From: Butyrivibrio sp. Su6 | Lineage (GTDB): Bacteria > Bacillota > Clostridia > Lachnospirales > Lachnospiraceae | Reading direction: 5' to 3' | DNA length: 64,000 nucleotides | NCBI RefSeq assembly: GCF_900108105.1 | Contig: NZ_FNUR01000002.1 | Coordinates: 62,001 to 126,000 of the forward strand | In this document: positions 22,077-41,612 of the stretch, piece after piece | Layout: every line of letters starts with the position of its first letter | How positions within the stretch are numbered: position 1 is the stretch's first letter | Translations under genes and position numbers: made by a program | Notes under the pieces: generated by a model | What the model was told of the DNA's origin: nothing | The model's input: only the letters and a program-made list of their open reading frames with translations | The model's database searches: none

Positions 22077-24479
22077 ATGGGCGAGTTTTTTGAGTTTATT
22101 AAAAGTGCTGTTAAACAACTAATCAGTAACAAGACTCGTACGCTGATGACGATGCTTGGCATTATCATCGGTATTGCATCTGTGGTCATAGTAGTCACTA
22201 TGGGAAATGGTATGACGGATTTTCTGGTCAGAGAACTGGATAGCGTTATGCCTAATACCGGTGATATCTCAATGAATGTCAACAAAACAACAGAAAGAAT
22301 AACACGTGAGGATCTTAAGGAAGTAAAAGAGCGTGTTCCGGATATATATGGCATCACACCCGTTTTATCTCCTGAGTATGAGTCAGTAAAGATCAAAACA
22401 AAAAGAGGATCTTATCTGGCAGCTATCGTCGGCAGATCAGAGGGGGGACTTTATGCTCAAGGACCTGTAATGGCAGCCGGATCATATTTTACTGAGCAGC
22501 AGGTGGACAATGCAGCAAGGATATGCGTAATTAACGATACAGATGCTGACAAGATATTTGGAACCAGAAATTGTATCGGTATGGAAATTGAGATTACTAT
22601 TGGTGCAAAGTCTGCAACTTATACCGTAGTAGGACTGAGACAAAATACTGCTTCAGTAGTTTTTAGTATGTTCGATGATCCGGGGGATGAATATATGGCA
22701 TCTGTTGAAGTTCCATATACCTCCTACTGCGCAGATTACAACGTCAATGCCGATGCTTTGACCAGAGTCAGTGTATATGCACATCCTGAGCGCCTTTCAG
22801 AACTTTCGGAACAGGCAAGAAATGTCATAGCCCAGAACCATATGATAAGGGATAAAGAACTGATTCCGCTTAGAGTATATGAGGGACTAAGCGATGTTTT
22901 TGGCAGTGTCATGAACAGCGCTCGTGTGTTCATGATCCTGATAGCTATCATTTCATTGGTGGTAGGCGGAATCGGCGTTATGAACATTATGCTTGTCTCA
23001 GTTACAGAGAGAACAAGGGAGATAGGTATCAGAAAATCCATAGGTGCAAGGACAGGAGCTGTTATGATACAGTTTCTGGCAGAATCAGCTTTTTTGACCT
23101 TGCTCGGTGGAATCTTAGGAATTGGTGTTGGGCTTGCACTGGCAAAGATTGGCTGTAACTTTCTCGGTTTCAAATTTATTATTTCTCCGATGGAAATTGT
23201 AATGGCAGCTCTTTTCTCTGTCATAATAGGAGTCTTCTTCGGTTTATATCCTGCTGCTAAGGCTTCCGGAATGAAACCCATAGATGCTCTTAGAAATCTC
23301 ATGAGCGATGTCAAAAATACACGAGTAAGAGGTGGACTTACTATACTTGGTATTGTTATCGGTATTACAGCTGTTTTGGTTGTGCTTATCGTGAGTGATG
23401 GCTATGAGGCCCAGATGAAGGCAGATCTTAATAAGAGGGCAGCAGGCATAATTTTAAAAGTCGATCAGACCAAAACAGACAAGTTCATAACACGCGATGT
23501 TTTAAAAACGCTTGAGGATATATATGCCGGTGATATATATGGAATAGACATGCTTGAAGCTGTGGGCGGACCAGCCATGACCGTCAACAAGAGAGGAAAA
23601 GATGTGACTGCAGATCTTTTTGGTGATGGTGAGGCGCTTGGATATGAAAATGCCATGAAGCTCATTGTAGGAAGATACTACAGCTTTGAAGATATTTATG
23701 AGTGTAACAGGGTTTGTGTTATACCAGAGGTTACAGCAAAAGATATCTTTGGCTATACCAATGTTGTTGGAAAAGAACTGCCAATTACAATTGGACAAAA
23801 GTCATATAATCTGACAGTCGTGGGAGTTACTGAAAGTACGGACTGGGACCTTGATAATGCAGCTACAGACTGTTATTTTGTCTACTTGCCTTTCACTACA
23901 GCCAGCGAGTTTTTGGGAAAAAATCCGGATCAGGTCGTTGCTTCCTGTAAGCTGGTCCTTGGTCATGACAGTGTTGATGATGCCCTTAAGAGACTCTCTT
24001 CCATAGCAGAAAATTTGCTGGAGGTAAGAGGAAAAGGGGCAATAACCATAACAAGAGAAGATACCATGAGTGGATTTGATAAGATAATCAAGGCCATAAA
24101 ATATGTAGGTTCTGTTATAGCGGCTATATCAATAGTGGTAGGTGGAATTGGCGTCATGAATATCATGACTGTTACTGTAACGGAGAGAACAAGGGAAATA
24201 GGAATAAGAAAGGCTATTGGTGCAAGAACGGGATATATCATGCTCCAGTTTTTGGGGGATGCATCAAGGCTTACTTTTATAGGTGGTCTCATAGGTGTGG
24301 CACTTGGACTTGGCTTATCCTATGTGGCATGCATGCTCGTAGGATTTCCATTTGTGGTAGACCCTGTAATGGTGGTGCTTGTGTCGGGAGCGTCTGTTGT
24401 ACTTGGCATATTCTTTGGCATAAATCCGGCTTATAAGGCCGCAAAGCTCAAGCCAATCGATGCCCTCAGAACAGACTAA
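22077..24479 (+). CDS. Fused tandem MacB/FtsX-type ABC transporter permease
   Basis: An 800-residue protein that is two MacB-type permeases joined head to tail (about 1-405 and 408-800). Each half has an N-terminal membrane helix (TLMTMLGIIIGIASVVIV / GGLTILGIVIGITAVLVV), an extracytoplasmic domain, and a three-helix C-terminal part with the signatures GGIGVMNIM, RTREIGIRK and PIDALR. Normal MacB-type permeases have one such unit and pair with an ATPase; no ATP-binding gene is adjacent, so it would need a partner from elsewhere. It lies just before the RiPP promoter; a link to export or self-protection is only a guess. The Shine-Dalgarno (GAGAGG) is 11 nt from the ATG. Confidence 0.85.
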   Translation: MGEFFEFIKSAVKQLISNKTRTLMTMLGIIIGIASVVIVVTMGNGMTDFLVRELDSVMPNTGDISMNVNKTTERITREDLKEVKERVPDIYGITPVLSPEYESVKIKTKRGSYLAAIVGRSEGGLYAQGPVMAAGSYFTEQQVDNAARICVINDTDADKIFGTRNCIGMEIEITIGAKSATYTVVGLRQNTASVVFSMFDDPGDEYMASVEVPYTSYCADYNVNADALTRVSVYAHPERLSELSEQARNVIAQNHMIRDKELIPLRVYEGLSDVFGSVMNSARVFMILIAIISLVVGGIGVMNIMLVSVTERTREIGIRKSIGARTGAVMIQFLAESAFLTLLGGILGIGVGLALAKIGCNFLGFKFIISPMEIVMAALFSVIIGVFFGLYPAAKASGMKPIDALRNLMSDVKNTRVRGGLTILGIVIGITAVLVVLIVSDGYEAQMKADLNKRAAGIILKVDQTKTDKFITRDVLKTLEDIYAGDIYGIDMLEAVGGPAMTVNKRGKDVTADLFGDGEALGYENAMKLIVGRYYSFEDIYECNRVCVIPEVTAKDIFGYTNVVGKELPITIGQKSYNLTVVGVTESTDWDLDNAATDCYFVYLPFTTASEFLGKNPDQVVASCKLVLGHDSVDDALKRLSSIAENLLEVRGKGAITITREDTMSGFDKIIKAIKYVGSVIAAISIVVGGIGVMNIMTVTVTERTREIGIRKAIGARTGYIMLQFLGDASRLTFIGGLIGVALGLGLSYVACMLVGFPFVVDPVMVVLVSGASVVLGIFFGINPAYKAAKLKPIDALRTD

Positions 24480-24521: not shown

Positions 24522-24551
24522 TTGACAGCTTTTTTACACACGTAATAGAAT
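24522..24551 (+). promoter_or_regulatory. Promoter of the RiPP precursor genes
   Basis: TTGACA (24522-24527), 18 bp, TAGAAT (24546-24551), in AT-rich DNA 57 bp before the first precursor start. The near-consensus elements together with the following AGGAGG suggest strong expression. Confidence 0.7.
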
Positions 24552-24607
24552 ATTCGTATAAACATTCAACCGTAAATAAGTAGTTTCTTTTTATAGGAGG
24601 TATGGCT

Positions 24608-24817
24608 ATGAACTTTACAAAAGAACAGATTGAGAAAGCTGCAAAATGTAAGAGTGTTGATGAGCTGTTAGAGCTTGCAAAGGCTGAAGGAGTAGATCTT
24701 TCAAAAGAAGATGCTGAGAAGTATTTTGCACAGCTTTCAAGTGGAGAGCTTAGCGTTGATGATATGACAGATATTGCAGGTGGAGCATGTTGTGGAAATG
24801 CCTGTGCACAGTGTTGA
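24608..24817 (+). CDS. RiPP precursor peptide 1, Nif11-like leader, core ACCGNACAQC
   Basis: A 69-residue peptide. The acidic, helical leader (59 residues, starting MNFTKEQIEKAAK) ends in a double-glycine site, DIAGG, and is followed by a 10-residue core containing four Cys. The leader resembles Nif11-type leaders processed by C39-peptidase exporters, and such an exporter is encoded 9 kb downstream. ATG 24608 was chosen over ATG 24602 because the strong AGGAGG (24595-24600) is 7 nt from the former and only 1 nt from the latter. The core sequence and position before radical SAM genes support a modified peptide product; its structure is unknown. Confidence 0.88.
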   Translation: MNFTKEQIEKAAKCKSVDELLELAKAEGVDLSKEDAEKYFAQLSSGELSVDDMTDIAGGACCGNACAQC

Positions 24818-24844
24818 TTTTTTTTCTGAGTAAGAGGTGTTGAA

Positions 24845-25084
24845 ATGAGCGAGATTAAAGTGTCAAAAGAGCTTTTTCAAAAGCTGGCTACTTGCAAAAC
24901 GGCTCAGGAAGTTGTTGATATGTGCAAAAAAGAAGCTATAGATCTTCCAATTGAAGACGCAGAGAAATTCATTGCACAACTTTCAAGTGAAGAAATCAGT
25001 CTTGATAGTGCAGAGAAGATTGCGGGTGGCGAGCCTTGTGCCGGTGCAGTATCTTTTGGTTGCGTTGGCCTTGGCATTTTTTAA
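24845..25084 (+). CDS. RiPP precursor peptide 2, Nif11-like leader, core EPCAGAVSFGCVGLGIF
   Basis: A 79-residue peptide with a 62-residue leader clearly homologous to that of precursor 1 (shared EDAEK..AQLSS..(I/L)S and KIAGG end) but an unrelated 17-residue hydrophobic core with two Cys. It starts 27 bp after precursor 1 behind AGAGGTG. Two substrates with one leader type suggest either a two-component product or a shared set of enzymes acting on different cores. Confidence 0.88.
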   Translation: MSEIKVSKELFQKLATCKTAQEVVDMCKKEAIDLPIEDAEKFIAQLSSEEISLDSAEKIAGGEPCAGAVSFGCVGLGIF

Positions 25085-25110
25085 GAATCGTAAATATCAA
25101 AAATAAAGCT

Positions 25111-25144
25111 AAACCCACATATGTATGAATATGTGGGTTTACTT
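25111..25144 (+). terminator. Attenuator-like hairpin between precursors and enzymes
   Basis: A perfect 12-bp inverted repeat, AAACCCACATAT (25111-25122) with ATATGTGGGTTT (25129-25140), closes a 6-nt loop and ends in a short T-run. This would let most transcripts stop after the precursors and some read through into the modification genes, a common arrangement in RiPP operons. Confidence 0.75.
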
Positions 25145-25161
25145 AGTATGTGGGGGTTGGA

Positions 25162-26682
25162 ATGGCAGATTACCATTTGAGCAGGTATGATATGATCCTG
25201 CCACTTGAAGAAGTGGAAGGAAAAGCTCTTTTAGCAAACGGAGTCTATGGAGCATATGATGTCGTTCCATTATCATGCATAGATAGTATTAAGTCAGGGG
25301 GAGAATGGCTGGATGAAGAGCTTTTTGAAAGACTTAAGAAAAGAGGCCATCTTGTAAAAGAGTCAGCTGAGGAGGAGCTTAAAAATGCGTCTCTTTTGAC
25401 CAGGTGCTGGTGGCTTTTGCCCTACAGGGCCATTATGGATTTAGTTATAATGCCAACTTATAACTGTAATTTCAGATGCGATTACTGTTATGAGCGCAAA
25501 CGCCTTGAAAAGGGTAATGAGTGGCTTGGGCATTCAATGAGCGATGAAGTTTTAGATGCGGTATTCGACCAGATTGATGAGTATATAAGGCAAGGCAGGC
25601 ACATAAGGAATGTCTTTTTATATGGTGGCGAACCACTTCTTAGAACCAACAAAAAGCAGGTGGAATACATAATAAACGCCTGCCATGACAGAGAGATCAA
25701 GCTTATATGCGTCACAAACGGATATGACCTAGATCAGTACATAGATATATTGGAGCCTGACTGGTTTGACTTTTTGCAGATAACTGTCGACGGCCCTAAA
25801 GAAGTTCATGATAAAAGGCGCTTTCTTGCCGGTGGTCAGGGCAGTTATGAGAAAATAATGAAGAATATTTCCCTTGTGCTTGAAAAGGGCCTGAGGGTTC
25901 ATCTTAGAACTAATATAAACAGATCTAATCTGGAGAGTGTAATGGAACTCCCTAAGGAGTTTGAAAAAAGAGGATTTTTAAAATATCCGAATTTCTACTG
26001 GTATTTCAAAGCTACAATCGGCTGCTTTGAAGATGATCCGAATAATGCCATAACTGATCTTGAAATGTATGAGACCATGAAGGCATTTGGAATGGATAAA
26101 AAAACAGCTCTGCAGCACTGTATGCTGTATGGCCAGATTACAAGAAGAGTTGGCGGTGCCATTGCGGCAGAGACCTATCCACCGCTCCGCCCTGCAGCTT
26201 GTGGCGCGGAGGCTGATATGTTGGTGGTTGATCCTGACGGTAAACTATATACCTGCTGGGATGTGGTTTCCATGGAAGAATACACAGTCGGTTACACAGA
26301 TCTTGAAGCAAAGCGTTTTCGTTTTGATCTTAATTTCCCGAAATGGAGGGGGCGGACCGCAGACAGACTGGAGAACTGCGCTGATTGCCCTATGATGATG
26401 GTTTGCGGTGGCGGATGTGCCATTGAAAGCGACCACGCCTACGGAACTATGGATAAAGGTTTTTGCGGGACCTTTAAAGAGGCTTTTGAAGAGGTTGTTC
26501 CGTATATATGTGGTAATAAATATAAGGAAAGTGGAGAAGATGAGCTTGGAGGAAGCTGGTACGACCTTATCGGGAATATAACAGATGAGGATAAAGAGAC
26601 ACTTTTTTCTACCATGTCACAGCTTGAAGCTCAGGATATTCTAAAAAAATACCTACGCAGATACAAAAGGATCTTTAGGTGA
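25162..26682 (+). CDS. Radical SAM/SPASM peptide maturase 1
   Basis: A 506-residue protein with an N-terminal region (about 1-95) of the type found in peptide-modifying radical SAM proteins, then the [4Fe-4S]-SAM motif Cys102-x3-Cys106-x2-Cys109 (CNFRCDYC), the FLYGGEPLL segment, and a C-terminal SPASM domain with CADCPMMMVCGGGC and a later FCGTF cysteine. Such enzymes form thioether (sactipeptide or ranthipeptide) or other carbon-centred crosslinks on Cys-containing cores. ATG 25162 is preceded by GGGG at proper spacing; the in-frame GTG at 25150 has no ribosome-binding site. First gene after the attenuator hairpin; precursor cores with Cys are its probable substrates. Confidence 0.9.
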   Translation: MADYHLSRYDMILPLEEVEGKALLANGVYGAYDVVPLSCIDSIKSGGEWLDEELFERLKKRGHLVKESAEEELKNASLLTRCWWLLPYRAIMDLVIMPTYNCNFRCDYCYERKRLEKGNEWLGHSMSDEVLDAVFDQIDEYIRQGRHIRNVFLYGGEPLLRTNKKQVEYIINACHDREIKLICVTNGYDLDQYIDILEPDWFDFLQITVDGPKEVHDKRRFLAGGQGSYEKIMKNISLVLEKGLRVHLRTNINRSNLESVMELPKEFEKRGFLKYPNFYWYFKATIGCFEDDPNNAITDLEMYETMKAFGMDKKTALQHCMLYGQITRRVGGAIAAETYPPLRPAACGAEADMLVVDPDGKLYTCWDVVSMEEYTVGYTDLEAKRFRFDLNFPKWRGRTADRLENCADCPMMMVCGGGCAIESDHAYGTMDKGFCGTFKEAFEEVVPYICGNKYKESGEDELGGSWYDLIGNITDEDKETLFSTMSQLEAQDILKKYLRRYKRIFR

Positions 26683-26699
26683 TCCATTAGGGAGGGCAG

Positions 26700-28133
26700 A
26701 TGTTTTTTTACTTAAAGCAACCATGGTGCCTGAGAGGTTATCAAAAAGACCTGATGCTTTTGGAAAAGTCCGGAGAATTGGAGCTTCCATACAGACTTAC
26801 ATATCCGCTCTTTGATCTTCTGAATAAATGCGATGGGGTAACTGATATTGAAATCGAAGAAGGCAGCAGGCAAGAGCAGGTTATAAAAAAATATATGGAA
26901 ATGGGAGTCCTTGAAAAGACGAACAAACCAAAAGAAATTGAAACCTGGCAGAAGTATAAGCACTTTGATAACAGGCGTATTCCTCGCGGCTTTTTTAGTG
27001 TGACAGGAAGGTGCAATTTAAACTGTATCCACTGCTTTTCCGCTACCGAATATGGGAAAGTTCCCTTTGAATTTTCTTTTGACCAGATAACTTATATTCT
27101 TGACCAGTATAAAGACTGTGGTATCAGAAAGCTCACAATAACAGGAGGAGAGCCACTTCTTCGCTCTGATTTTACAGATATCATAAAGGCCATGGCAGAC
27201 AGGAATATGGAAATGTTCCGCCTTTACACAAATGGAATGTTTCTTGATGAAAGGATAGTAAAAAGCCTTAAAGAAAACAGTTTAAATCCGCAGATTGTAA
27301 TAAGTTTTGATGGTGTGGGAACTCATGACTGGATACGAAATTATAAGGGAGCCCAAAAAAAAGCGGAGGAATCCATAGCATTTGCACTGGATAGCGGCTT
27401 TGAGGTGAAGGCCAATGTCAATGTGAATTCCAAGACGGCAGAGAGACTCCCTGAAACTGCCCACTATCTCTATGATCTGGGAATACGATCTATCTTTTTC
27501 ATAAGGACCAGTGAAGGCCCAAAGTGGATAAGAAGCGGATATGGAAGCCTGTCAGCAGAGGATTATTGGACTGTAATGCTTGAGGTAATGTCAAGTATCA
27601 GACAGGAGAATAAAAAAGACCTTGAGATCGTCTGGTTTAACGGCCCGACACTTACAAAAGGTATAACAGCAGAGGCGCTAAAAAGCGGATCTCCATACAG
27701 ATATGAATCTGAGGATATCAAAAATTCTGCCTGGTGCTTTAAAGCGATAAATGATCTTTATGTATCATCTACAGGAATGGTATTCCCATGTGATGGCTGC
27801 GAGGGCGTTGCACTTCAGACAGGATGGCTTGGAGAGAATTCCAATATTCTAAAAAGACCCCTTAGAGACATCATTAATGATTCGCATTATTCGGAAATTA
27901 TGAGAATGACTGCGGAAGAAGTAATAGAACATTCAAAAGACTGTAAAGGCTGCGACTGGGAAGAAAGGTGCCATGGCGGAAACTGTCGTGTGTGCGGAAT
28001 GCTCTATAAGGCAGTTGCAAACGGATATACCTTTGAGAACTGCGATATTGATATAAAACTTCCGGCGCCTTTAACATGTACTTTTTACAAAAAGGGTTAC
28101 TACGAGAAACTTCTAAAGATATTAGAGGAATAG
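26700..28133 (+). CDS. Radical SAM/SPASM peptide maturase 2 with RRE-like N-terminus
   Basis: A 477-residue protein. Residues 1-90 look like a PqqD-type winged-helix leader-recognition domain (FDLLNKCDGVTDIEIE, then YMEMGVLE). The radical SAM motif is Cys105-x3-Cys109-x2-Cys112 (CNLNCIHC), with TITGGEPLL following. The SPASM region has CDGCEG, CKGCDWEERCHGGNCRVC and a last Cys near LTCTFYKKG. GGGAGG lies 7 nt before the ATG and the gene follows maturase 1 after 17 bp. It presumably binds a leader and installs a modification distinct from maturase 1. Confidence 0.9.
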   Translation: MFFYLKQPWCLRGYQKDLMLLEKSGELELPYRLTYPLFDLLNKCDGVTDIEIEEGSRQEQVIKKYMEMGVLEKTNKPKEIETWQKYKHFDNRRIPRGFFSVTGRCNLNCIHCFSATEYGKVPFEFSFDQITYILDQYKDCGIRKLTITGGEPLLRSDFTDIIKAMADRNMEMFRLYTNGMFLDERIVKSLKENSLNPQIVISFDGVGTHDWIRNYKGAQKKAEESIAFALDSGFEVKANVNVNSKTAERLPETAHYLYDLGIRSIFFIRTSEGPKWIRSGYGSLSAEDYWTVMLEVMSSIRQENKKDLEIVWFNGPTLTKGITAEALKSGSPYRYESEDIKNSAWCFKAINDLYVSSTGMVFPCDGCEGVALQTGWLGENSNILKRPLRDIINDSHYSEIMRMTAEEVIEHSKDCKGCDWEERCHGGNCRVCGMLYKAVANGYTFENCDIDIKLPAPLTCTFYKKGYYEKLLKILEE

Positions 28134-28137
28134 CCTG

Positions 28138-36103: not shown

Positions 36104-36136
36104 CAGTTATAGGGTCAGATGATGTGAGGTGTTATA

Positions 36137-38347
36137 TTGAGCACAATAAGTTTCAATACGGAAACTGAATTACTGTTTAACAGAATAGAGGAAGACGAGC
36201 AGAATCTTTCGGACGCTCTCATGGGTCTTACTGAAGTAGTTGAAGGTAAGAAGGTATATTCGCGCTTTGGAAAGAACTATCTTTCATCTGTAACAGCAGA
36301 TGTTGTGGAGCAGATTCTTTTATATTGCGGGAAAGCTGGAAGAGTTGACCCGGAAGAGTTCAGTGGTAAAACTGAGGAAGAAAGAATACATAGTCTGACC
36401 AGATTTTTTGATAAAAGAGGTCTTAGTATTCATGAGGTTCAGCTAAAAAAAGGGTGGTCGAAAAATGCTTTGGGACCATTGATCATTTCTGACAATGAAA
36501 AGAAAATATATGCTGCTATTCCAAACATATTAGGCAATTATCATTATGTAGATTATAAAAGCGGAAAAAGTGTAAAGATTACCAAAAAGAATGAAGAGAA
36601 GTTTGATAGAACAGGAATTTGTTTCCTTCGCCAGTTTGAGAAAAAGAAACTTGGTATAAAAGATCTTCTTCTGTTCATGGTGAAGTCTTTGCTTGTTTCT
36701 GATATCGTTATGGCCATTGTTCTTGGGCTATTTGCAATACTTGTGAGCCTTATAGTCCCGTTTCTTATCAGGTCTTTGTTCTTTAATCTTGATGATTATA
36801 AAAGCACCACTCCGATAATTGCTTATCTTGTATTTATGGTGTGTACATCTCTTTCTGTGACACTTTTCAGGACTGTCCAGTCACAGATGATCTACAGAAT
36901 GGCTTCGAAGGTAGATCGTGACACAAGGGCTGCGACAATGGAAAGAATGCTTTCTCTCCCCACAGATTTTTTCAAGAATCATTCAGCAGGTGCCATAGCC
37001 AAGCGAATGCAGATATTCCCGATGCTTTGCGAGAGTCTTATTACCGGAGTTTTTACGACCGGTCTTATGACTATTCTAAGTATCTTTTACATTTTCCAAA
37101 TATATAATCTTGGTGGAGATCTGTTTGTAGTGGCATCTGTGACTACAATACTTAATATTGGCCTGACATTTCTGATAATCAGGAAAAAGAGCGATGTGAA
37201 TGGCCGAAGGATTGAATATGCAACCAAAGATAATGCTATTTTGGTTTCTATGATGAATGGTATCCAGACCCTTAAAGTAACATCTTCTGAAAGGAGATTA
37301 TATACTCAGTGGCTCAAGATATTTAAGCAGGAAGCAGTAGCTGAGTACAGACCCGGATTCATTGTTGTATATGGTAACGTACTGGTAAATGCAGTCTCAC
37401 TTATAGGAATTCTTTTTACTTACATTGCTGCAAATCAGATGCAGATGTATACGAATTACTATATTGCTTTTACTGCACTTTACGGTATGCTCACGGGAGT
37501 TTTTACCCAGCTTCAGGACACAGTTCCTAATGCAGCACTGGTAGTACCTATACTAAAATCTTTGGAGATACTTTTTGAGGAGAAGCCTGAAGAAAGCGAT
37601 AATAATGAGCTTGAGCATGTGGTGCCAAACAGAATAGAGTTTGATAATGTTTCTTTTAAGTATGCGGAAAACCTGCCTCTTGTAATAAAGAACCTGAATC
37701 TTAGTATAAAAGAGGGAGAGTACGTTGCCATAGTTGGAAAAAGCGGCTGTGGAAAAAGCACGATAATGCGTCTCATTTTGGGATTTGAACAGTGCACTCT
37801 TGGTAGTATCTATATAAACGGAGTAAATATTAAGAACATAGATAAAAAGTCTCTTCGCAGAAATTATGGCGTTGTCATGCAGGACAGCCGACTGTTTTCG
37901 GGAACTATTTTAAAAAACATATCTATAGCTAATCCTCAAATGACAGAGGAAGAGGCTTGGGAAGCGGCGAGAAAAGCCGGAATTGCTGATGATATTGAAA
38001 ACATGCCTATGAAGATGCACACAATCGTGGATGAAAATGCATCCTGTATATCAGGAGGTCAGAAGCAAAGAATTATTATTGCCAGAGCTTTGGCGGGAAA
38101 TCCCAAACTTCTTTTGTTTGATGAGGCGACCAGTGCACTTGATAACATTACACAGAAGGTGGTATCGGATTCCCTTAGTGAACTGAAGTGCACAAGAATA
38201 GTAATAGCTCATCGACTCTCTACTATTAAAGATTGTGATCGCATAATAATGATAGATGATGGAAGTGTTGATGAAATGGGAACCTATGAACAGCTTATGG
38301 CTAAAAATGGCAAGTTCGCTCAAATGGTGGAAAGACAAAAGCTGTGA
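36137..38347 (+). CDS. Second ABC transporter of the NHLM system, no peptidase
   Basis: A 736-residue ABC protein with a soluble N-terminal region (about 1-170) lacking C39 catalytic residues, six membrane helices (about 185-440), and an ATPase domain with IVGKSGCGKST, CISGGQKQRIIIARAL and LLLFDEATSALD. It corresponds to the ATP-binding partner that accompanies peptidase-type transporters in NHLM clusters. The start is TTG at 36137 with GAGGTG about 7 nt upstream; no in-frame ATG is near. It is the last gene of the RiPP run. Confidence 0.88.
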   Translation: MSTISFNTETELLFNRIEEDEQNLSDALMGLTEVVEGKKVYSRFGKNYLSSVTADVVEQILLYCGKAGRVDPEEFSGKTEEERIHSLTRFFDKRGLSIHEVQLKKGWSKNALGPLIISDNEKKIYAAIPNILGNYHYVDYKSGKSVKITKKNEEKFDRTGICFLRQFEKKKLGIKDLLLFMVKSLLVSDIVMAIVLGLFAILVSLIVPFLIRSLFFNLDDYKSTTPIIAYLVFMVCTSLSVTLFRTVQSQMIYRMASKVDRDTRAATMERMLSLPTDFFKNHSAGAIAKRMQIFPMLCESLITGVFTTGLMTILSIFYIFQIYNLGGDLFVVASVTTILNIGLTFLIIRKKSDVNGRRIEYATKDNAILVSMMNGIQTLKVTSSERRLYTQWLKIFKQEAVAEYRPGFIVVYGNVLVNAVSLIGILFTYIAANQMQMYTNYYIAFTALYGMLTGVFTQLQDTVPNAALVVPILKSLEILFEEKPEESDNNELEHVVPNRIEFDNVSFKYAENLPLVIKNLNLSIKEGEYVAIVGKSGCGKSTIMRLILGFEQCTLGSIYINGVNIKNIDKKSLRRNYGVVMQDSRLFSGTILKNISIANPQMTEEEAWEAARKAGIADDIENMPMKMHTIVDENASCISGGQKQRIIIARALAGNPKLLLFDEATSALDNITQKVVSDSLSELKCTRIVIAHRLSTIKDCDRIIMIDDGSVDEMGTYEQLMAKNGKFAQMVERQKL

Positions 38348-38382
38348 TGAGATAAGTTGATAAAATGTGGTGTGTTTAAAGG

Positions 38383-38412
38383 AGGCATGTTGTTTGCGAC
38401 ATGCTTTCTTTT
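38383..38412 (+). terminator. Terminator at the end of the RiPP cluster
   Basis: GGCATGT pairs with ACATGCT around an 8-nt loop, followed by TTCTTTT, 36 bp after the second ABC gene. Confidence 0.6.
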
Positions 38413-40206: not shown

Positions 40207-40327
40207 CTCTTATTCAGAGTGGTGGAGGTACATAGGACCTATGAAGCCACGGCAACCCCTTGATCATTCAGGAAGGTGCCAACCTGAGCGTGCAATTCCG
40301 TTTTTTCGGACTACGAGCAATAAGAGG
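40207..40327 (+). promoter_or_regulatory. SAM-I (S-box) riboswitch aptamer of metK
   Basis: The P1 arms CTCTTATT (40207-40214) and AATAAGAG (40319-40326) enclose the S-box core: CAGAGTGGTGGAGG, GAAGCCACGGCAACC, and GGTGCCAACC followed by GAGC. It lies directly upstream of S-adenosylmethionine synthetase, so binding of SAM would shut metK off through the following terminator. Confidence 0.93.
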
Positions 40328-40421: not shown

Positions 40422-41612
40422 ATGGATAAATTTATTTTCACATCAGAATCAGTAACAGAAGGACATCCTGATAAAATATGCGATAACATTTCAGACGCAA
40501 TTCTTGATGCATGCATGGAACAGGATCCTATGAGCCGTGTTGCCTGCGAGACAGCAGCTTGTACAGGTTTCGTTCTTATTACAGGTGAGATCACAACAAA
40601 GGCTCACGTTGACTACGCTAAGATTGCCCGTGAGACAATCAAGGAAATCGGATACGACGATTCATCAAAGGGATTTGATGGAAACACATGCGCAGTACTT
40701 GTAGCTCTTGATCAGCAGTCAGCAGATATCGCTATGGGCGTTGACAAGGCTCTTGAAGCAAGAGAGAACCAGATGACTGATGAAGAGCTTTCAGCTATCG
40801 GTGCTGGTGATCAGGGTATGATGTTTGGTTATGCTACAAACGAGACAGATGATTACATGCCTTACGCTATCAGCCTTGCTCACAAGCTCACAAAGAAGCT
40901 TACAGAAGTAAGAAAGAACGGAACACTTCCTTACCTTAGAGCAGACGGTAAGAGCCAGGTTTCTGTTGAGTATGATGAGAATGGAAAAGTTAAGAGACTT
41001 GAAGCTATCGTAATCTCAACTCAGCATGATGAGAAGGTTACTCAGGAGCAGATCCATGAGGATATCAGAAAGTACGTTATTGATGCTGTAGTTGACGGTG
41101 CTATGGTTGATGATGCTACTAAGATCTACATCAATCCTACAGGCCGTTTCGTTATCGGTGGACCTCAGGGTGATGCAGGACTTACAGGTCGTAAGATCAT
41201 CGTTGATACATACGGCGGAGCTGCTCGTCACGGCGGCGGAGCTTTCTCAGGAAAGGACTGCACAAAGGTTGACCGTTCTGCAGCATATGCAGCTAGATAC
41301 GTTGCAAAGAATATCGTGGCAGCAGGCCTTGCAGACAGAGCAGAGATCCAGCTTTCATACGCTATCGGTGTAGCTGAACCTACATCAATTCTTGTAGATA
41401 CATTCGGAACAGGTAAGGTTTCTGATGAAGCTCTTACAACAGCAGTACGTAAGGTATTCGACCTTCGTCCTGCAGGAATCATCAAGATGCTCGACCTTCG
41501 TCGCCCTATCTACAAGCAGACAGCAGCTTACGGACACTTCGGCCGCAACGACCTTAACCTTCCTTGGGAGCAGACAGACAAGGTTGAAGAGCTCAAGGCA
41601 GCAGTTAAGTAA
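40422..41612 (+). CDS. metK: S-adenosylmethionine synthetase
   Basis: A 396-residue MAT of normal length that makes SAM from methionine and ATP. It opens [16 protein letters not shown], contains [12 protein letters not shown] and the [19 protein letters not shown] loop, and ends with the GHFGR segment. Expression is under the SAM-I riboswitch directly upstream. Cytoplasmic; it supplies SAM for the four radical SAM enzymes of the neighbouring RiPP cluster as well as general metabolism. Confidence 0.97.

Follow-up and report, generated by a model that had tools for sequence, protein, structure and literature searches.

A single-strand operon for two Nif11-like precursors, six modifying enzymes and an exporter

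The window (the whole 64,000-nucleotide stretch analysed, part of a 3.7-Mb Butyrivibrio genome) carries eleven genes on the forward strand at 24602-38347, separated by intergenic gaps of -10 to +65 bases. They encode two Nif11-like precursors, three SPASM radical SAM proteins, a COG2102/DUF71 PP-loop protein, a YcaO protein, a B12-type radical SAM protein and an NHLM-type exporter. All family assignments were backed by family searches, which, together with the positions and the single strand, bore out the gene identities and operon structure given in a preliminary description drawn from the DNA alone. Several scores lie under curated cut-offs, indicating divergent members from which a specific product cannot be read off. 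The flanking promoter and terminator claimed earlier were also found: a near-consensus sigma-70-type promoter-like site (TTGACA-18-TAGAAT, 11/12) lies at 24522..24551 with its bases kept in Butyrivibrio sp. AE2015, and a terminator-like stem-loop with a T-rich tail, likewise present in AE2015, lies 3' of the last gene at 38378-38411. The cluster had been delimited as 24522-38347, and the eleven genes are indeed in place, but this left edge was set too far to the right. A fused double MacB-like permease (22077..24479, forward strand, 800 aa, two MacB_PCD and two FtsX domains in Pfam) travels with the cluster, so that the unit begins at 22077, about 2.4 kb further upstream. Among 79 Butyrivibrio genomes, the intact fused permease was found directly 5' of the first precursor gene in the three cluster-bearing ones only (58-99% identity); permease matches in the rest of the genus reach at most 51% and usually consist of two adjacent genes or have a stop between the halves. 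A natural guess, which we propose here, is that the permease is a self-immunity or efflux part.

The precursors P1 (24602..24817, 71 aa) and P2 (24845..25084, 79 aa) have homologous Nif11-like leaders, each ending in IAGG, followed by cores of 10 residues (ACCGNACAQC) and 17 residues (EPCAGAVSFGCVGLGIF), respectively. With TIGR03798, P1 and P2 score 22.8 and 18.3 bits, both under the Nif11 cut-off of 32.3, and a homologous leader at a locus in another genus (L097) scores 36.1 bits. Comparison of the three cluster-bearing species gave the core patterns AC[CGA]GN[AV]CAQC for P1 and EPC[AV]GAVSFGCVG[LI]G[IL][FA] for P2; the cores are thus strongly constrained, with invariant positions, and the leader/core split assigned earlier holds. 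There is no Asp and a single Glu in the two cores together, and Ser/Thr is near-absent (none in P1, one Ser in P2). P1 and P2 were found in only 3 of the 79 Butyrivibrio genomes, and matches to other Nif11-like leaders within Butyrivibrio lie at about 30-45%. Ribosomal precursors with leader and core that adjoin modifying enzymes define the locus as a RiPP cluster. The same genome also encodes, at another place (L001:1489-1770), an orphan protein with a Nif11 domain that has no Gly-Gly core.

Three radical SAM genes follow the precursors. rSAM1 (25150..26682) is a radical SAM/SPASM peptide maturase of the CefB/PapB-like group (NF038107, 161.7 bits) with the motif CNFRCDYC and SPASM cysteines. 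Family searches and motif placed rSAM2 (26700..28133), which has an N-terminal extension of about 95 aa, as an AhbD/StsB-like radical SAM/SPASM protein, and the short rSAM3 (28138..29262), about 24% identical to rSAM2, as NirJ-like; the nearest proteins to both are SPASM proteins of the AhbD/NirJ/StsB type. The fourth radical SAM protein (31647..33404) has a B12-binding domain (34.5 bits), the motif CPYQCTFC and ApyD as the nearest named family (NF050148, 320 bits). All four carry CxxxCxxC, and the class motifs are intact in each of the six modifying enzymes, including the DUF71 and YcaO proteins described below. AlphaFold models of rSAM1 and rSAM2, built for leader-binding domains, had mean pLDDT of 45-47 with N-termini below 50 and were discarded.

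The operon ends with a short HlyD-like membrane protein (33420..33932; TIGR03794, 20.4 bits, cut-off 156), which has homologues at the same position in other Nif11/NHLM loci, NHLM ABC1 with C39 peptidase, permease and ATPase (33923..36103; TIGR03796, 775 bits, cut-off 853; Peptidase_C39, 120.6 bits) and NHLM ABC2 with permease and ATPase (36137..38347; TIGR03797, 582 bits, cut-off 709). The order HlyD, C39-ABC, second ABC and the best-matching families agree with the NHLM pattern previously described for the export genes, at scores below the equivalog cut-offs. ABC1 carries the motifs ECGAAC and HFVVLNG and is predicted to cut the leaders after GG and to export the product. In the gap between P2 and rSAM1, at the boundary between precursors and enzymes, lies an RNA hairpin (25110..25141, forward strand) with a 13-bp stem in the window. 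The hairpin was found in all three species, and in Butyrivibrio sp. XPD2006 two pairs show compensatory changes on both sides and one has turned into G-U. Its placement fits a device that holds precursor mRNA in excess, probably an attenuator or a 3'-end stabiliser. A search of Rfam gave no match inside the cluster. A SAM riboswitch (RF00162, 75 bits) is located at 40207-40326 of the window, 5' of an S-adenosylmethionine synthetase gene at 40422.

The cluster is conserved in three species and moves as a unit

AE2015 and XPD2006 have all eleven genes in unchanged order, at 82-99% and 44-82% protein identity, respectively, and recurrence of this order in two other species at 44-99% identity is not chance. 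Comparison with AE2015 gave dN/dS values of 0.05-0.15 for 10 of the 11 genes, both precursors included, indicating purifying selection; HlyD gave 0.53, a value that rests on few changes (dS 0.05). The cluster and the permease occupy two different chromosomal sites across the three species. In the window and in AE2015 the unit lies upstream of what we take from the sequence to be a xylulokinase-like gene, in the window downstream of a presumably Tex-like gene, and in XPD2006 permease and cluster stand between genes that appear to be groEL and a PAS/GGDEF-like gene. The presence of both at another site in XPD2006 indicates that the twelve-gene unit moves together. Synonymous divergence from AE2015 across 25150-38347 is a mosaic, with dS of 0.05-0.18 in rSAM2 and the exporter genes, 0.4-0.9 in the other cluster genes and near-identical flanks, which suggests that individual genes of the cluster have recombined repeatedly. 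A recent foreign origin was rejected by composition, as the GC content of the cluster (40.9%) is close to that of the flanks (41.7 and 42.4%).

A whole-collection DUF71 scan returned AE2015, XPD2006 and one unrelated context only, using two short peptide patterns that would miss divergent clusters. No further copy of the whole cluster was found by YcaO in about 300 genomes of the family and about 400 of the phylum, or by DUF71 in about 390 genomes of the order. Taken together, the locus is probably a mobile Butyrivibrio RiPP operon for the synthesis and export of two peptides that undergo heavy modification.

The DUF71 protein is confined to the cluster

The DUF71/COG2102 PP-loop ATPase (29272..29922, forward strand; Pfam Diphthami_syn_2, 119 bits) has SGGKDC in the PP-loop, compared with SGGK(D/E)S in most family members, and a second motif, GEDGEYH, that is the same in the cluster proteins of all three species. 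A comparative study of 2012 distinguished two groups in the family, Dph6 with Glu188 and a B12-linked bacterial group with ENGEF/YH188 (PMC3541065). The cluster protein is of the His type and has Asp where Asn is usual, and it branches apart from the btu-linked proteins. The diphthamide pathway is, to our knowledge, absent from bacteria, and this absence and the His signature, in place of the Dph6 EGGE/DxE188, rule out a role as diphthamide synthase. We know of no bacterium in which a reaction has been established for a DUF71 protein.

One explanation for the presence of this gene is that its product never touches the peptide and instead salvages or remodels cobamides for the B12 radical SAM enzyme. 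It has in its favour the His188 of the bacterial B12-linked type, the frequent position of DUF71 genes in the order next to B12-uptake genes and the shared operon with the B12 enzyme. However, several homologues in the order adjoin genes of the B12-uptake type and the cluster DUF71 does not, its branch is separate and its signature has Asp for Asn. Moreover, 76 of the 79 Butyrivibrio genomes are without DUF71, and the three that have it are the cluster-bearing ones, where it is found inside the cluster only. CbiB was present in all six Butyrivibrio species checked and CbiZ in none, so that the three cluster-free species among them have CbiB without CbiZ or DUF71. The genus therefore does not need DUF71 for B12 assembly, and the gene is a cluster gene rather than a general B12 gene. 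The nearest non-cluster relative (62%; L018:365-1039, from a sheep-gut MAG) is not beside B12 genes either; its neighbours are by appearance a purine nucleoside permease-like protein and a QueT-like protein. Cobamide supply by DUF71 to the B12 radical SAM enzyme is possible; a protein that serves cobamides and never meets the peptide we consider unlikely.

Direct action of DUF71 on the ribosomal peptide is our tentative alternative to that cobamide role. In that case the cluster may be a new RiPP class, with cores down to ten residues in length that would be worked on by DUF71 together with three SPASM radical SAM enzymes, a thioamide-forming YcaO of the E. coli type and a B12 radical SAM enzyme. 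No report of the DUF71 family in a RiPP cluster was found in the literature searched. If the proposal is true, DUF71 would represent a novel type of RiPP maturase. The cluster gives a first genetic link of the family to peptide modification.

The YcaO is of the full-length E. coli type

The YcaO of the cluster (29929..31647, forward strand), a proposed thioamide synthetase, aligns to E. coli YcaO (4q84) over residues 16-465, past the shared kinase domain, and other YcaO structures match over about 120-130 residues. It scores 233 bits with NF040716 versus 66 bits with the SagD-type model; as 233 bits is under the equivalog cut-off of 700 (YcaO_for_S12), it is related to the uL16 enzyme and is not that enzyme. 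A 2026 study showed that E. coli YcaO needs no partner to thioamidate uL16, and it noted RiPP contexts for those members of the group that are less acidic (PMC13063428); a pI of 4.4 was reported for the E. coli enzyme. The cluster YcaO has a computed pI of 5.3, above the very low pI by which a uL16 thioamide synthetase matches its basic target, and the PxPxP C-terminus is absent from all three cluster orthologues. Among the cluster genes we found no dehydrogenase, no ThiF/E1-like partner, which together with PxPxP would mark an azole peptide (LAP/TOMM), no TfuA, which would mark a YcaO-TfuA thioamidated RiPP, and no sulfur-supply gene. The pI of 5.3 and the lack of PxPxP and of a ThiF or TfuA partner favour stand-alone thioamidation over azoline formation.

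A search of about 300 genomes from the family gave four further E. coli-type YcaO proteins. All four lie in RiPP-like loci, two of them at a single locus that also encodes Nif11 precursors and an NHLM exporter. In the YcaO loci L013, L014 and L015 we observed a second YcaO with a nitroreductase at one, a ThiF protein at one and several Nif11 precursors at one. A cyclodehydratase that converts core cysteines into thiazolines, giving an azole-containing TOMM-like peptide rather than a thioamide, would suit the Cys-rich cores and the generic kinase domain, and ThiF- or nitroreductase-like partners do accompany some of the other E. coli-type YcaOs of the family. This is doubtful for the present cluster, however, given its content of partner genes, the C-termini of its three YcaO orthologues and the low SagD-type score. 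The cluster offers a tractable system for asking whether E. coli-type YcaO enzymes can thioamidate ribosomal peptides on their own.

rSAM1 belongs to a recurring module

Relatives of rSAM1 (35-39% identity) were found in two other genera of the Lachnospiraceae, at the loci L094, L095, L096 and L097. At L094 and L097 they adjoin NHLM exporters and precursors with P1-homologous leaders (30-49% where matching); L096 has an NHLM exporter and a less similar Nif11-like peptide beside the rSAM1 relative, and L095 has a precursor there, with no exporter gene within the stretch read. rSAM1, its leader type and the exporter are thus a recurring simple module, to which the remaining five enzymes look like added accessories. 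We infer that rSAM1 is probably the primary, leader-dependent enzyme, to which Butyrivibrio would have added five more. Since the module occurs without these five in two other genera, the product might instead come from rSAM1, the precursors and the exporter alone, with the five being relics or serving another pathway; yet none of the five is broken or out of place in the three species, purifying selection acts on each, and the unit has moved in one piece, which makes such a minimal pathway very improbable.

The accessory enzymes very probably have a role beside rSAM1. For rSAM1 itself, the SPASM radical SAM type and conserved core cysteines are present, and it may form a thioether crosslink of the ranthipeptide or sactipeptide kind. 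Asp and Glu are crosslink partners in PapB, and with one Glu and no Asp in the P1 and P2 cores the chemistry of rSAM1 may be another. Cores beside the rSAM1 relatives include GCYPDCEKDYCFEN and GNKCYVEDGCVQKCDTPT, and cores at Nif11/NHLM radical SAM modules carry acidic residues, whereas P1 has none; the crosslink type made by rSAM1 may accordingly differ.

Homologous proteins of 552-636 aa with no Pfam match above cut-off are encoded beside the Nif11/rSAM1 modules at L094:6163-7821 and L097:12635-14545; one of them has weak radical SAM and SPASM traces and is possibly a degenerate radical SAM partner. Two proteins of about 340 aa that belong to no known family and are probably related to each other also adjoin rSAM1 modules (L096:7165-8190 and L097:14561-15595).

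Proposed maturation of the two peptides

Gene context supports well that the enzymes modify P1 and P2, which they very probably do. The most likely product is an exported peptide pair that would carry radical-SAM crosslinks, backbone thioamidation and C-methylation. No enzyme reaches the equivalog cut-off of a characterised family, and each reaction proposed here is therefore an extrapolation. The hairpin between P2 and rSAM1 would leave the cell with more mRNA for the precursors than for the enzymes. rSAM1 would bind the leader and then form thioether crosslinks from core cysteines, and the rSAM2/rSAM3 pair may introduce further radical C-H changes. The YcaO, partner-free like that of E. coli, would convert a backbone amide to a thioamide at the expense of ATP, the DUF71 protein could adenylate a carboxyl or amide group in the core and so open the way to amide or sulfur chemistry, and the B12 enzyme would C-methylate a core residue. 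The C39 transporter is expected to cut after GG and export the product, with the permease possibly protecting the producer. Six modifying enzymes would in this way act on two peptides with very short cores.

The earlier statement that no product is known for this combination stands, as the gene set is not described in the literature searched (freely accessible main texts; the supplement of PMC13063428 may list the YcaO). The enzyme combination, including a DUF71 type unreported in such clusters, matches no described product, and the peptides are therefore likely to be chemically new. Their role in the rumen is likely that of antimicrobial or signalling peptides. We conclude that the RiPP cluster is real and conserved and that its enzyme combination is new. 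Under a rule published for rumen genomes, YcaO plus PF04055 (radical SAM) is called a 'thiopeptide' (PMC13289728), and rule-based mining would thus probably mislabel the cluster; gene content rules the label out, as there is no lantibiotic-type (split LanB) dehydratase and no pyridine-forming enzyme in the cluster and, where a thiopeptide core is rich in Ser, Thr and Cys, P1 and P2 offer a single Ser and no Thr between them, leaving next to no chance of a thiopeptide.

Comparison with known systems

The YcaO resembles E. coli YcaO in its full-length alignment, C-terminal region included, and in standing alone, and differs in being less acidic and in sitting in a RiPP operon. The DUF71 protein has the PP-loop and the GE-x-GEYH signature in common with bacterial DUF71-B12 proteins, but not their B12-gene neighbours, their Asn or their usual PP-loop residues. 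A PP-loop (AANH) enzyme that inserts sulfur in a peptide natural-product pathway is the closthioamide synthetase CtaC (PMC6772006), which acts on carrier-bound, non-ribosomal substrates and has a three-Cys iron-sulfur motif of the TtcA/TtuA type. In the cluster DUF71, C13 and C16 lie within the PP-loop motif and a separate CxxC with a distant Cys is not evident, and CtaC-like Fe-S sulfur insertion is not favoured. The B12 radical SAM enzyme is nearest, at a score under the cut-off, to ApyD of the aminopyruvatide pathway, a demonstrated C-methyltransferase that beta-methylates Tyr; aminopyruvatide also uses P450, MNIO and methyltransferase enzymes, none of which is present in the Butyrivibrio cluster.

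Among other Lachnospiraceae, the locus L013 is similar in having Nif11-leader precursors, two E. coli-type YcaO proteins, a radical SAM protein and the same exporter type, but its cores are hydrophobic, a methyltransferase takes the place of the B12 enzyme, and DUF71 and orthologues of rSAM1 and rSAM2/3 are missing. The rSAM1 loci L094, L096 and L097 have HlyD-like, ABC1 and ABC2 exporter genes as in the Butyrivibrio cluster, and differ from it, as does L095, in being without rSAM2, rSAM3, DUF71, YcaO and the B12 enzyme. Beside them, the Butyrivibrio cluster looks like an elaborated version of a simple Cys-peptide module, and it shows how a Nif11/rSAM/NHLM module can gain complexity by enzyme recruitment.
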